From positions 1 through 20,948 of the IMG/VR virus record IMGVR_UViG_3300037200_000286: 20,948 nucleotides of DNA; one strand, given 5' to 3'. Below the pieces are notes generated by a model. That model was not told the origin of the DNA, ran no database searches, and saw only the letters and a program-made list of their open reading frames with translations. Source of the stretch: a virus. Positions within the stretch are counted from its first letter, which is position 1, and every line of letters begins with the position of its first letter. A program made the translations under genes and the position numbers. Shown one piece after another: positions 12,526-20,160 of this stretch.

Positions 12526-12874
12526 TATCTAATCTTCTCGCGGCTTCCGCGGCCAGTTCCTCATCAGATATCTTATGGAGCACAAATTCTTCTTTAACCT
12601 TACCGAACAGTCGTTCAATAAAGCTTTGAATATGGCTAAAGTCGCCTGACTTAATGGCCTTCTGCATGGCTGACGCCATAGCCATCTCTAATACTGTACC
12701 CTTAAAGTCTTTAAGATCTTCTGGCTTAAGGTCTATAAGCTTATGGATGAGGAGTGAGAATTCACCCTTGGTCATCTGTTTAATGGCCTTCAATTCTGGT
12801 GGCCCAGGGGGCCTGCCAGCAGGGTTTCCTGATTGACCAGGCTTAAAAGGCACAAGGGTTTTAGGATTGCTCAT
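12509..12874 (-). CDS. terS: Terminase small subunit
   Basis: A 121-residue DNA-recognition subunit beginning with MSNPKTLVPFKPGQSGNPAG, followed by RPPGPPELKAIKQM. The FKPGQSGNPAGRP signature is typical of small phage proteins (DUF5681 type) that lie directly before large terminase genes. The middle is helical (EMAMASAMQKAIKSGDFSHI, QSFIERLFGK), which agrees with the oligomerisation region, and the C-terminus is Ala/Glu-rich. ATG 12874 overlaps the end of the ParB-methyltransferase gene by 14 nt, and the end overlaps terL by 17 nt, so the three genes are translated as a block. Confidence 0.85.
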   Translation of the reverse strand: MSNPKTLVPFKPGQSGNPAGRPPGPPELKAIKQMTKGEFSLLIHKLIDLKPEDLKDFKGTVLEMAMASAMQKAIKSGDFSHIQSFIERLFGKVKEEFVLHKISDEELAAEAARRLDSGSES

Positions 12875-14090
12875 TCACTGTTCTTTCACTGATTCTCTCG
12901 GATTTTAGTCCAGTATATTTCTCCCAGCGGGTGACGATGACATCGCAGTAATGAGGATCTATCTCCATCATGAAGCACTTACGTTTAGTCTTCTCACAGG
13001 CTATGAGGGTTGAGCCGGAACCACCGAAGAGGTCGAGAACTGACTTAGATGTGTGGTTGCCAATCGCTTTCTCAACAATAGCCACCGGCTTAGTTGTGGG
13101 GTGAGCCACTAAATAGTTTCCGGCTTGGTTAAATCGCTTGCCATTCTCATCAAAACTATTAAATGAGCTGCTCTTTGGAGCGTCCCAAACATTGGTTTCT
13201 CCGGTGCAAATTGGATCAACTCCGTTCGAGACAAAAAATATAGCCTCAAACTTCCTGTTATATTTGTTTTTAGAATAAAATGATGCCGAGTCTTTGTTCC
13301 AAACAATGATTTCATCGAAGGTAAATGCACTGTTCTTAAGGGCTGACTCGAAATCACTATGGTTTTTAATTTCATAGCAAATATATGCTGGATATTTTTC
13401 AATTATTGCAACTCTCATTCCTGCAAAGGCAGCTGATAGGAAGGTTATAAAGTCATCTTGCTCCATTGAGTCGTTCTTTATCTTGCCAGTAAACTTGCCC
13501 TTAATACCCACATTGTACGGAGGATCGGTAAAAACCATGTCAGCCTTCTCGCCATTCATTAACTTTTCAACGTCTAGGATATTTGTCGAATCCCCACAAA
13601 GAAGTCTGTGCTCCCCTAATTTATAAAGGTCGCCCTTCTTTGTTGTTGGCTCAATATGAGATGGTATAGTATCTTCACCTTCTCGATCGGCGACATCTAC
13701 TTTAAAACCTTTTATGCCCAATAGATCTAAATCGAAATCAGGACCTAGTTCTCCGATGTCCAAGTTAATCCCCGATAGGTCTAGTTCCGCCCATGAGGCA
13801 ATGGCATTGTCTGCCTGGACATCAGCATATTCTTGTTCATCTGAATCATAATCTTGAATTGTTACTGGGACTTCTTTCATGCACATCTTCATAGCGGCCA
13901 TTAATCTTCCATGGCCTGAAGTTATGAAGCCTGATCGCTTACTGACCTTGATGGGATATCGCCAGCCTTGGTATGCTAAAATCTTACAAAGTCTGTCAAT
14001 TTGTTCTGGCGAATGTTTGTTCCGGTTCTTTGGATGTTGCTTGAGCTCTTTAGGATCTTTGAGTTCTGTATGCTCGCAATGAATTCTCAT
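12861..14090 (-). CDS. ParB-domain / DNA methyltransferase fusion (beta-class, N4-cytosine or N6-adenine)
   Basis: The 409-residue protein joins a ParB/Srx-like N-terminal domain to a SAM-dependent DNA methyltransferase. Residues 1-100 have the ParB-type KQHPKNRNKHSPEQIDRL (17-34) and GFITSGHGRLMAAMKM (54-69). Residues 150-409 are the methyltransferase: KGDLYKLGEHRLLCGDS (152-168), catalytic motif IV DPPYN (189-193) and SAM-binding motif I FGGSGST (355-361). Motif IV before motif I defines the beta class. Methylation of A-N6 or C-N4 in a short target is expected; the target cannot be predicted. ATG 14090 is chosen because AGGA lies 7 nt upstream of it and its ATGA overlaps the preceding stop; an in-frame TTG at 14105 is weaker. 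ParB-methyltransferase fusions recur beside phage terminase genes. Confidence 0.9.
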   Translation of the reverse strand: MRIHCEHTELKDPKELKQHPKNRNKHSPEQIDRLCKILAYQGWRYPIKVSKRSGFITSGHGRLMAAMKMCMKEVPVTIQDYDSDEQEYADVQADNAIASWAELDLSGINLDIGELGPDFDLDLLGIKGFKVDVADREGEDTIPSHIEPTTKKGDLYKLGEHRLLCGDSTNILDVEKLMNGEKADMVFTDPPYNVGIKGKFTGKIKNDSMEQDDFITFLSAAFAGMRVAIIEKYPAYICYEIKNHSDFESALKNSAFTFDEIIVWNKDSASFYSKNKYNRKFEAIFFVSNGVDPICTGETNVWDAPKSSSFNSFDENGKRFNQAGNYLVAHPTTKPVAIVEKAIGNHTSKSVLDLFGGSGSTLIACEKTKRKCFMMEIDPHYCDVIVTRWEKYTGLKSERISERTVNEQS

Positions 14091-14335
14091 TGACTTATCC
14101 TGCAATGAATCACATTGGCTAAGGGGATAATGTTTGTGGTCCCATGGGCTTTGGTAATTACCCCGTCTGGGGTCCAGGTAATAGAATCGACCACATATTT
14201 CTTATCGAATTGATTTCTTCCAACAAGTTTGAATTCGGATACTGGCTCTTTATCTACTCCAGGTGGAACTGGTTGATGAAATCGGACATAGTAGCTCTCA
14301 TAAACTTTTGATTTCTTCTTTTCTTCCAACTTCAT
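14087..14335 (-). CDS. Small basic protein, function unknown
   Basis: An 82-residue protein beginning MKLEEKKKSKVYESYYVRFH with GVDKEPVSEFKLVGRNQFDK later and a beta-rich end (YVVDSITWTPDGVITKAHG). It overlaps the end of the HTH-GNAT gene by 38 nt and its stop overlaps the methyltransferase start as ATGA. The start is uncertain: AAGGAG lies only 1 nt before ATG 14335, whereas an in-frame TTG at 14329 is at a more usual distance. I recognise no family. The small-beta-domain look would suit a nucleic-acid or protein-interaction module, but that is a guess. Confidence 0.6.
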   Translation of the reverse strand: MKLEEKKKSKVYESYYVRFHQPVPPGVDKEPVSEFKLVGRNQFDKKYVVDSITWTPDGVITKAHGTTNIIPLANVIHCRISQ

Positions 14336-17683: not shown

Positions 17684-17903
17684 AGGAAAATATAATGAAT
17701 TTACACATCAAGTTCAAAAGAAATGGACAAAATGCGGTGATCTAGGAACAGAAGATATAAAAATAGTCATGGCAAAACTGAATAAGAGAACAGAGGCATT
17801 ACTGGCCTTTGCTGACCATTTTGGCCCATTGGAAGATAATCACTTGCTCAGTGATGAGGTTCGGGCCTGTTTTAAATTAGCACGGAAGGCACTTGAGCCA
17901 TGA
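17676..17903 (+). CDS. Small protein, function unknown
   Basis: A 75-residue protein, MFKGKYNEFTHQVQKKWTKC then GDLGTEDIKIVMAKLNKRTE, mainly helical and ending CFKLARKALEP. ATG 17676 lies inside the end of erf (8-nt overlap), so translation is likely coupled; there is no clear Shine-Dalgarno site. A short out-of-frame ATG at 17694 leads to a 16-codon frame and is not favoured. No family recognised. It sits between the annealing protein and a methyltransferase. Confidence 0.6.
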   Translation: MFKGKYNEFTHQVQKKWTKCGDLGTEDIKIVMAKLNKRTEALLAFADHFGPLEDNHLLSDEVRACFKLARKALEP

Positions 17904-17904
17904 A

Positions 17905-18642
17905 ATGTTCAATCTCCAATCCAAAGGACACAGGGGAGTAGGAATTCTCTATCTAGGGGATTGTTTGGAAGTGATGAAACGATTAGACGACAAGAGCATA
18001 GACATGATTTTAGCGGATATTCCATATGGAACAACGTCATGTAAATGGGACACCATTATTCCTCTTGAACCAATGTGGGAAAATCTGAATCGCATTTGCA
18101 GCGGAGCAATTGTTTTATTTTGTTCTGAACCATTTACCTTTACTCTTGGCTCATCTAATTTGAAAAACTTTAGACATGCATATTCTTGGATTAAAACTAA
18201 GGCCAGTAACTTTCAGCATGCTCGTAAGATGCCAATGAAAAGGCATGAAAACATTTTAGTGTTTGGCGACTATAAATTTTACTTGGATTTGAAGCCGATT
18301 GAGCCAATTAAACAAAGTCGCAAAAACAAAGGCGCAAATTTACATGGCGCTAGAATAAAAGATTCTGGGGATTATTTTCAAACTGAAACCGGATTTAAAT
18401 TCAGCGATCTACACTTTGCAAACCCTTCCGGCAAGGGCCAGTTTCATCCCACACAAAAACCAGTACCGTTACTGGAATATCTGATTCAGACCTATTCACA
18501 AGAAGGAGATACTGTTTTAGATTTTACAATGGGGTCAGGATCGACCGGAGTTGCCTGTAAGAACCTGAATCGTGAATTTATAGGAATTGAAAAAGATGAG
18601 AAATATTTTGAGATAGCTAATAAAAGGATTAATGAACGTTAA
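17905..18642 (+). CDS. DNA methyltransferase, beta-class N4-cytosine/N6-adenine type (DIPYG variant)
   Basis: From ATG 17905 the protein has 245 residues. The N-terminus has GILYLGDCLEVMKRL (13-27) with the D of the SAM-binding region, then motif IV as ADIPYGTTSCKWD (37-49), a D-I-P-Y form of the usual DPPY. Near the C-terminus HPTQKPVPLLEYLIQTYSQE is followed by motif I DFTMGSGSTG (206-215) and FIGIEKDEKYF. Motif IV before motif I is the beta class, and 'DxPYGTTxxxWD' is a well-known phage and restriction-modification subgroup of DNA adenine or N4-cytosine methylases. No cognate endonuclease is adjacent, so an orphan protective methylase is likely. The start is ambiguous: an in-frame TTG at 17893 has GGAAGG only 3 nt upstream. 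Confidence 0.88.
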   Translation: MFNLQSKGHRGVGILYLGDCLEVMKRLDDKSIDMILADIPYGTTSCKWDTIIPLEPMWENLNRICSGAIVLFCSEPFTFTLGSSNLKNFRHAYSWIKTKASNFQHARKMPMKRHENILVFGDYKFYLDLKPIEPIKQSRKNKGANLHGARIKDSGDYFQTETGFKFSDLHFANPSGKGQFHPTQKPVPLLEYLIQTYSQEGDTVLDFTMGSGSTGVACKNLNREFIGIEKDEKYFEIANKRINER

Positions 18643-18670
18643 CAGTGTGGAAACAACCAAAGGAAGTAAA

Positions 18671-18994
18671 ATGAGACTTATCAATGAAGAAGAAGCTGGA
18701 ACTGATCAAATGGTCAAAGACCTGGAAAAAGCCTATTTCCATTCATGTAAGCACAATAAAACAAAAGTCGATGATCTAAAATACTTCAGACAATACGTTT
18801 GGAACCTCTTCGCCATGATGTCGCAGGCATTGGACACGGTTAAACAAACACAAGACGAAGAAACCGGATCAGTTAAAAAGTGCGAAAGCTGCTTAGAACA
18901 TTTTCTTGAATCAAAATTAACTAAAGTTGATGCCCATGCATTGGTTTGTGATGAATGCAGAGAAAGTGAAAGCGATTATGAAACATCTCGATAG
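18671..18994 (+). CDS. Zinc-finger-like small protein
   Basis: A 107-residue protein; ATG 18671 is preferred over ATG 18632 because AAAGGAAG lies just upstream. It begins MRLINEEEAGTDQMVKDLEK, has a helical middle (YFRQYVWNLFAMMSQALDTV) and a C-terminal CESCLEHFLESKLTKVDAHA then CDEC. The C-x2-C and C-x2-C pairs about 21-24 residues apart with an H between look like a zinc ribbon or short DksA-like finger, though no D-K-S-A signature is seen. Role unknown; nucleic-acid or RNA-polymerase interaction is a guess. Confidence 0.7.
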   Translation: MRLINEEEAGTDQMVKDLEKAYFHSCKHNKTKVDDLKYFRQYVWNLFAMMSQALDTVKQTQDEETGSVKKCESCLEHFLESKLTKVDAHALVCDECRESESDYETSR

Positions 18995-19317: not shown

Positions 19318-19377
19318 ATGCCTAACTGGGATGTTGGGAGTAAAAAAACCAAATATACAAAGAGGTTTGATGCTTAA
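19318..19377 (+). CDS. Possible 19-residue peptide preceding the C5 methyltransferase
   Basis: ATG 19318 opens a frame reading MPNWDVGSKKTKYTKRFDA, with TAA at 19375-19377 sharing its last A with the ATG of the alternative frame at 19377 (TAATG). AAGG lies about 12 nt upstream, a weak ribosome-binding site. The frame overlaps the true C5 methyltransferase start at 19370. It is strongly basic; whether it is translated is uncertain. Confidence 0.3.
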   Translation: MPNWDVGSKKTKYTKRFDA

Positions 19378-19939
19378 TGGCTTGGATTTATTTAGCGGGA
19401 TTGGAGGAATGGCAGTTGGACTCACCGATTGGGTTCGGCCTGTCGTTTACTGTGAGATCGATAAATACTGCCAAGCTGTTTTATTGTCACGAATGCAGTC
19501 AGCCGAACTTCCCATTGCCCCAATCTTTGACGATGTGCGAGGGCTGTCATCAAGGCACTTTGGAATACCCATTGATATCATCGTCGGCGGATTTCCTTGC
19601 CAGGATATCAGCGTTGCAGGAAATGGAGAGGGCTTGGAAGGAAAGCGAAGTGGCCTTTTCTTTGAAATCATCCGATTGGCAAGTGAGTTACGACCCAGCT
19701 TCATTTTCTTGGAAAACGTCCCAGCTATCGCTGTTCGGGGGCTTGATAGAGTTCTCTTGGAGCTCACTGCGCTGGGGTATGATTCTCGCTGGACAGTTGT
19801 TTCAGCCGCAGAAGTTGGAGCCTGCCATTTACGAGAACGATGGTTCTTGCTTGCCCACGCCAATAACAAGCGATACTCGAACGAATCGGGATATAAAAAA
19901 GGTCAGACCTCAGCCTTCCTCCATTCCATAGACGACTAG
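19370..19939 (+). CDS. C5-cytosine DNA methyltransferase, short form lacking target-recognition and C-terminal motifs
   Basis: Read from ATG 19370 (AGAGG 4 nt upstream) the protein has 189 residues and begins MLNGLDLFSGIGGMAVGL, exactly where C5 methyltransferases start. Motifs in order: I DLFSGIGG (6-13), catalytic IV GGFPCQDIS (73-81; Cys77), VI FLENV (113-117), and VIII-like HLRERWFLLAHA (153-164). It then ends within 30 residues. Complete enzymes are normally over 300 residues, with a variable target-recognition domain and motifs IX and X, none of which is present here; the next gene begins 9 nt after. It may be a split enzyme, a decayed relic or a short variant. It would methylate cytosine C5 if complemented. 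A long second frame covers the same DNA. Confidence 0.85.
   Translation: MLNGLDLFSGIGGMAVGLTDWVRPVVYCEIDKYCQAVLLSRMQSAELPIAPIFDDVRGLSSRHFGIPIDIIVGGFPCQDISVAGNGEGLEGKRSGLFFEIIRLASELRPSFIFLENVPAIAVRGLDRVLLELTALGYDSRWTVVSAAEVGACHLRERWFLLAHANNKRYSNESGYKKGQTSAFLHSIDD
19377..19931 (+). other. Long alternative frame inside the C5 methyltransferase gene (dual-coding candidate)
   Basis: A 184-codon ATG frame, out of phase with the methyltransferase, starts at 19377 (TAATG with the small peptide frame) and ends 8 nt before the methyltransferase stop. Its second half has SYDPASFSWKTSQLSLFGG, SLRWGMILAGQ and SCLPTPITSD. I recognise this 'YDPASxSWxTSQ ... PTPxxxD' string from database proteins linked to cytosine methyltransferases, but the same string results from reading RPxFxFLENVP and RERWFLLAHA in the next frame, so conservation could be secondary. 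A third frame on the minus strand (19447-19869) is also open, which shows that low stop density here is partly compositional. Confidence 0.25.
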
Positions 19940-19947
19940 AGGTTTGA

Positions 19948-20160
19948 ATGAACGAATATCAAAACATGAGGCGCCTTAAAGTTGGCAGTGACGACGATGA
20001 ATGCGGGATATGTTATTTCATTCCAGTTTGCGAACACTGTAATCAATTTGTGAAGCCTTATGATGAAATAACATTTGATGGCGATTGCCAACCTTTGAGA
20101 CCCAATGCGACTTGTAAAAAGTGTGGCGAAACTTCGATGATTTTTGAAGGATATTATTAA
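19948..20160 (+). CDS. Small zinc-ribbon protein
   Basis: A 70-residue protein with AGAGG 5 nt before ATG 19948. After MNEYQNMRRLKVGSDDDECG it has CYFIPVCEHCNQFVKP and then ATCKKCGETSMIFEGYY. The pairs CEHC and CKKC, about 22 residues apart, form a standard zinc ribbon, with an extra CGIC before them. Small zinc ribbons ending in an aromatic FEGYY are frequent in phage early regions, of unknown function. It starts 9 nt after the C5 methyltransferase stop and could be translated with it. Confidence 0.7.
   Translation: MNEYQNMRRLKVGSDDDECGICYFIPVCEHCNQFVKPYDEITFDGDCQPLRPNATCKKCGETSMIFEGYY

Follow-up and report, generated by a model that had tools for sequence, protein, structure and literature searches.

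A viral locus that probably encodes both subunits of a split C5-cytosine methyltransferase, in truncated form, on the same DNA

Genes that overlap almost completely on one strand are regarded as rare and short-lived, and such overlaps are discarded by annotation pipelines. The window analyzed here, 20,948 bases long, corresponds to an entire viral record, in which a short C5-cytosine methyltransferase gene is overlaid by a second open frame on the same strand. An earlier note on the sequence had left the choice between a dual-coding gene and a widely copied mis-annotation; the synonymous constraint reported below favours dual coding. With a probability of about 85%, the locus belongs, in truncated form, to a widespread family of split C5-cytosine methyltransferases that use two reading frames of one DNA stretch to encode their two subunits, here named alpha and beta.

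The alpha frame of the window matches PF00145 (E 3.7e-38) and TIGR00675 (E 2e-30), and the former match covers only positions 2-169 of the 324 in the profile. It is approximately 70% identical to the alpha of an intact relative, L008, up to about position 19909. Motifs I, IV (PCQ), VI (ENV) and VIII, which the earlier note had described as intact (the last as VIII-like), are all present (Table 1). The same note had reported that neither a target-recognition domain nor motifs IX and X follow alpha, and that the next gene begins 9 nt past its stop; neither the domain nor either motif was found in any downstream frame, and the next ATG is at 19948.

Table 1. Positions of the alpha and beta frames, their motifs and their start region in the window
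Feature	Position	Strand	Basis
Alpha, catalytic half of C5-cytosine methyltransferase, 189 aa, probably truncated after motif VIII	19370-19939	+	PF00145, TIGR00675
Alternative in-frame alpha ATG	19331	+	Sequence
Alpha motif I (DLFSGIGG)	19385-19408	+	Alignment of alpha relatives
Alpha motif IV (GGFPCQDIS)	19586-19612	+	Alignment of alpha relatives
Alpha motif VI (RPSFIFLENVPA), DNA shared with beta YDPASFSWKTSQ	19691-19726	+	Wobble conservation
Alpha motif VIII region (HLRERWFLLA)	19826-19855	+	Alignment of alpha relatives
Beta, putative second subunit, 184 aa, probably truncated before motif IX-like stretch	19377-19931	+	phrog_1008, L008 beta
Beta YDPASFSWKTSQ	19689-19724	+	Alignments of beta relatives
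Beta GMILAG (family consensus PxSGMxxxG), above alpha LGYD	19776-19793	+	Wobble, codon table
Beta LPTPITSD, first W/LPTPxxxD family repeat	19851-19874	+	Tail matches L091, L236, L008 beta
AGAGG, candidate Shine-Dalgarno sequence for alpha, possibly beta	19361-19365	+	Sequence
AATG, alpha Asn codon AAT (19376-19378) creating beta ATG (19377-19379)	19376-19379	+	Start-region table
19-codon frame ending in TAATG	19318-19377	+	Sequence

The 184-codon out-of-phase frame and the 19-codon frame joined to it by TAATG, both described previously, are present as well. The former, beta, lies in the +1 frame of alpha; it matches phrog_1008, 'DNA methyltransferase' (E 1.3e-11), and is 51% identical to L008 beta. 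At the junction, TAA occupies 19375-19377 and ATG 19377-19379. Coupling of beta to the 19-codon frame through this junction was considered and rejected, since relatives mostly have RTG AAT G or TTA AAT G. The AGAGG sequence is spaced 4 nt from the alpha ATG at 19370 and 11 nt from the beta ATG at 19377, and a tetramer resembling a Shine-Dalgarno sequence is found upstream in 76 of 119 relatives.

The 184 codons of window beta contain no stop, against 4.5 expected from synonymous shuffles of alpha's own codons; only 17 of 20,000 shuffles that kept the alpha protein and its codon composition were stop-free. With the codon usage of the phage itself, 9.0 beta stops were expected and 1 shuffle in 20,000 was stop-free. 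Against a distant beta profile, made from relatives with alpha identities below 52%, window beta scored 131.4 bits, and 3,000 synonymous shuffles scored a mean of 86.7 (sd 11.9, maximum 130.4). A profile of nearer relatives gave 214.9 bits versus at most 189.1 for the shuffles. The shuffle scores show how large the effect of a shadow of alpha can be, and the real window beta is above all of them.

Both window frames lose similarity to relatives at about 19901-19909, approximately 27 nt past LPTPITSD and shortly before their own ends. Searches of three frames with tblastn, blastp and profiles detected no remnant of motif IX or X downstream in the window; relatives have both motifs. Because both frames end before motif IX and no remnant follows, a recent loss-of-function deletion is the probable explanation. 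On sequence grounds, the window copy is thus probably a recently truncated, inactive member of its family.

Two other explanations of the short copy were weighed. It might be functional as it is, for example if a reduced alpha/beta pair suffices or if a partner subunit is encoded at another site of the genome. Neither window frame shows internal decay, both remain open, and the beta signal stands intact against synonymous shuffles, which is consistent with such a function. This explanation is nevertheless improbable: motifs IX and X are missing from every downstream frame, nearly all full relatives keep the motif IX-like stretch in beta, and no other alpha match occurs in the record, which may itself be a fragment, with a possible partner outside it. 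In addition, an exact 18-mer scan of viral contigs found no relative sharing the truncated tail. Alternatively, the phage may have a full-length pair, and the truncation may be an assembly or sequencing error of the metagenome contig. The sequence is a single contig for which no near-identical relative was found, and homology stops at the same place in both frames. However, the contig continues for 1 kb more with ordinary small ORFs at normal spacing, and a one-base error cannot erase motifs IX and X from three frames; an error of this kind is therefore quite unlikely.

A total of 214 distinct relatives was collected, including 135 viral and 79 cellular members. The viral relatives were fetched from viral contigs by the alpha frame alone, apart from a handful that came in earlier, so beta had almost no part in their choice. 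The cellular members were selected by a beta motif, and only the viral set is therefore nearly unbiased. Alpha and beta profile matches overlap in the +1 relation at 239 of 240 loci. The beta profile also matches shadows, as seen in the weak matches of two non-members, L155 and L157.

The synonymous-constraint check that had been proposed for this locus was carried out, and it showed stop depletion confined to the +1 frame. Over the catalytic region of 130 distinct viral relatives, 172 stops were counted in the +1 frame versus 531 expected, and 1184 versus 1048 expected in the +2 frame, which served as a control and is informative for stops. Over the whole alpha ORF, the ratio of +1 stops to the codon-shuffled expectation was 0.40 in the 135 viral and 0.38 in the 79 cellular members; in 71 ordinary single-frame methyltransferases it was 0.80, a slight depletion. 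Relatives that had first been grouped as stop-containing keep a shorter beta. Similarity linked to the wobble base also rises in the +2 frame, and similarity scores were therefore not taken as sole proof.

In a +1 overlap, the wobble base of alpha is the second codon position of beta. Among 25 representatives less than 55% identical, this base was the same in 0.486 of comparable codons versus 0.368 expected. Wobble conservation is partly common to the control methyltransferases: their excess was 0.073 at 50-60% identity, against 0.154 in the family, and 0.107 at 60-70% identity, against 0.200. Within the family the excess is uneven, with its peaks over the motifs of beta and not over the best-conserved motif of alpha. 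Over alpha motif IV (GGFPCQDISVAG), the value of 0.42 is near the null of 0.38. At beta YDPxSxSWKTSQ, which shares its DNA with alpha motif VI, it is 0.52 versus 0.38 (z 10), and at the beta GM stretch 0.69 versus 0.40 (z 19), where the Gly codon is GGG in 25 of 25 divergent relatives. At beta LNPxWVEWLMGF, which corresponds to alpha AEPAVGRVADGV, it reaches 0.87 versus 0.33 expected. The earlier suggestion that the beta strings could be shadows of alpha motifs does not hold, because the wobble bases are frozen at the motifs of beta and not at those of alpha.

The beta start is likewise kept by codon choice. Among 119 loci with Asn at this site, the codon that makes the beta ATG is AAT in 107 and AAC in 12, whereas Asn codons overall in these genes are 1166 AAC to 844 AAT; beta is not open at the site in 11 of the 119. 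In the clades with NGLDLFSGIGG and NELALFAGAGG, the alpha start codon is followed by at most one more codon and then AAT G, which places the beta ATG 4-7 nt past the alpha start. In other clades the beta start is located deeper inside alpha. In the family and in the window, the same DNA is thus under selection in both frames, and beta is neither a shadow nor an annotation error.

In intact relatives, alpha has approximately 250-350 aa and beta mostly 190-410 aa, and the motifs are divided between them. Among 217 distinct loci, 175 have motif X in alpha and a motif IX-like stretch, LNPxWVEWLMGFPxGWT, in beta. Motif X was found in beta at 4 loci: L001, L175, L230 and L040. In three of them (L175, 2583-4125; L230, 2970-4167; and L001, a Streptomyces phage, 1170-2334), alpha stops soon past motif VIII and its frame is filled with stops from there, and beta stays open and includes motif X in addition to the W/LPTPxxxD repeats and the motif IX-like stretch. 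A motif that is needed once per enzyme has moved from one frame to the other, which is the best evidence that alpha and beta belong to one enzyme.

Structure prediction was applied to the alpha of L008 and to a beta chain. The AlphaFold2 confidence of alpha is mostly above 90 for residues 1-165, below 50 for residues 183-250 and about 97 for the motif X helix. In a Foldseek search, the best hit of this model was M.HhaI (E 2e-15), on which the catalytic domain superposes over 169 columns. The region between motifs VIII and X is predicted to be disordered, and alpha appears to have no ordered small domain; beta is therefore a natural candidate to supply one. Beta alone folds poorly (pLDDT 58, pTM 0.24), too poorly for a structure search, and Pfam and NCBIfam models gave no match to it, so a small-domain role is proposed from motif resemblance and frame switching. 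Beta would presumably also carry target recognition, against which speaks the assignment of the predicted domain to the large subunit in M.EcoHK31I (PMC3404938). Between motifs VIII and X, the intact alphas (L008 and others) are hydrophilic, and LADA/VADT-like strings recur there as a counterpart of the W/LPTPxxxD repeats in beta. In this region alpha may be filler, with beta as the selected frame.

These data suggest the following arrangement. Alpha, in frame 0, would provide the AdoMet-binding and catalytic large domain with motifs I-VIII, and motif X at its end. Beta, in frame +1, would provide the motif IX-like stretch and, putatively, the small domain for DNA recognition. In the clades of the window, where the two starts are 4-7 nt apart, one initiation region can feed both frames, and beta would be translated from its own ATG. 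Together, the two chains would form a single enzyme of two domains, which would mark the phage DNA, most likely for protection from host restriction.

Motif X occurs in either frame depending on lineage, and the frames are offset by +1; both points would also suit programmed ribosomal frameshifting that fuses alpha and beta into one chain instead of two subunits. Such fusion is very unlikely, however, as beta has its own conserved start just past that of alpha, which would be useless to a frameshift product, and because constraint on both frames extends over most of the shared DNA, more than a single shift would require. Hardly credible, and rejected here on codon shuffles, control methyltransferases and frame switching, is a shadow held open by the alpha protein and its codon usage, with annotated relatives as copied gene-caller errors: the sizeable profile scores of alpha shadows, the weak matches in non-members, the mild +1 depletion in single-frame enzymes and the lack of a Pfam or NCBIfam match would agree with it, but stops are 2.5 to 3 times more frequent in shuffles that preserve alpha and its codon usage, frozen wobble bases occur only at the motifs of beta, the beta ATG is conserved, and in L175, L230 and L001 beta is open and conserved where alpha is closed.

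Two-subunit enzymes similar to the alpha/beta pair are found among known C5-cytosine methyltransferases. M.EcoHK31I, with the specificity YGGCCR, consists of two polypeptides, and its small one, of about 176 aa, was reportedly read from another frame inside the large gene in a 1995 NAR paper; beta, mostly longer at 190-410 aa, is likewise located in another frame within the alpha gene. In M.EcoHK31I, motifs I-VIII and X are located in one polypeptide and motif IX in the other, and the predicted target-recognition domain was placed in the large subunit (PMC3404938). This motif division is that of the 175 loci mentioned above; the window copy lacks both IX and X, so the family is M.EcoHK31I-like and the window copy is not. 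In contrast to M.EcoHK31I, several clades here have a beta start 4-7 nt past that of alpha and about 97% of alpha overlapped, and the alpha region in which a recognition domain would be expected is predicted to be disordered. No recognizable M.EcoHK31I copy was found in plasmids or E. coli genomes, and searches of enterobacteria gave few prophage copies. By analogy with the published description of M.EcoHK31I, the family would work in the same manner, and the two may be homologous.

M.AquI is a two-subunit C5-cytosine methyltransferase that recognizes CYCGRG, and its genes overlap by only a few bases, unlike the hundreds of bases shared here. Its alpha subunit contains motifs I-VIII, and the second subunit contains part of the variable region together with motifs IX-X (PMC3404938). 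The same division is seen in L001, L175 and L230. Motifs IX and X are together in the second polypeptide only in these three and L040; the window has neither, and most relatives keep motif X in alpha. In L175, L230 and L001, the same pair has switched between an EcoHK31I-like and an AquI-like division. Single-chain enzymes, for example M.HhaI and M.HaeIII, have motifs IX and X downstream in the same frame, as seen in L157 (RRLTPKECFRLQGFPDEL), and their +1 frame is filled with stops. PHROG 1008 is matched by the beta of the window and of its relatives. The last part of this family (290-321) matches motif X, which is encoded in the alpha frame in L008, and its record gives no hint of members that overlap a methyltransferase gene.

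Beta-like sequence was confirmed in 235 stretches of a species-genome collection, 80 of which were kept. The cellular hosts include Pseudomonadota, Nitrospirota, Actinomycetota, Bacillota, Planctomycetota, Verrucomicrobiota, Spirochaetia and others, and many of the cellular copies are probably prophages. Cultured phages and a Leptospira plasmid also contain such sequence. Across 213 loci, the overlap has a median of 803 nt, and the open beta frame covers a median of 97% of alpha. It is likely that an old split-methyltransferase family is common to phages and to bacteria of many phyla, with beta overprinted on about 97% of alpha and the starts 4-7 nt apart in major clades. A family with this spread over phyla, near-complete overlap and closely spaced starts was not described in the literature searched, outside which most subscription papers lie.

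Alpha is usually the sole annotated frame (for example in L002, L154, L158 and L159), and a few records list two methylases. In Paenibacillus phage Bloom (L156), both nested frames, 1498-2553 and 1700-2404, are annotated as 'DNA cytosine methyltransferase', and similar nested annotation can be observed in many other Paenibacillus larvae phages. In a prophage copy of the pair in E. coli PCP07014 (L319, 1500-2261), PGAP labels alpha as a pseudogene, and a stop in beta lies near the internal one of alpha.

If the dual-coding reading is true, this pair would rank among the long same-strand dual-coding genes of widest known distribution, and most annotations miss or mislabel it. Because beta is absent from most annotations, alpha cloned alone should be inactive, and conclusions on methylation drawn from it would be wrong. 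A dual-coding pair across hundreds of phage and bacterial genomes would provide a natural system for the study of two-protein selection on one sequence. It also raises the questions of how one initiation region feeds two frames and why the halves of a split enzyme are kept on the same DNA.

The phage seems to invest in several methyltransferases. An N4/N6 methyltransferase is encoded at 17893-18642 of the window (PF01555, E 4e-30), and a 414-aa ORF at 12861-14105 has, by sequence, the look of a ParB-like protein plus an N4/N6 methyltransferase. A 120-aa ORF at 18632-18994 has a sub-threshold match to an XPA_N-like zinc finger (E 0.0014, 19.1 bits versus a cut-off of 27.1).
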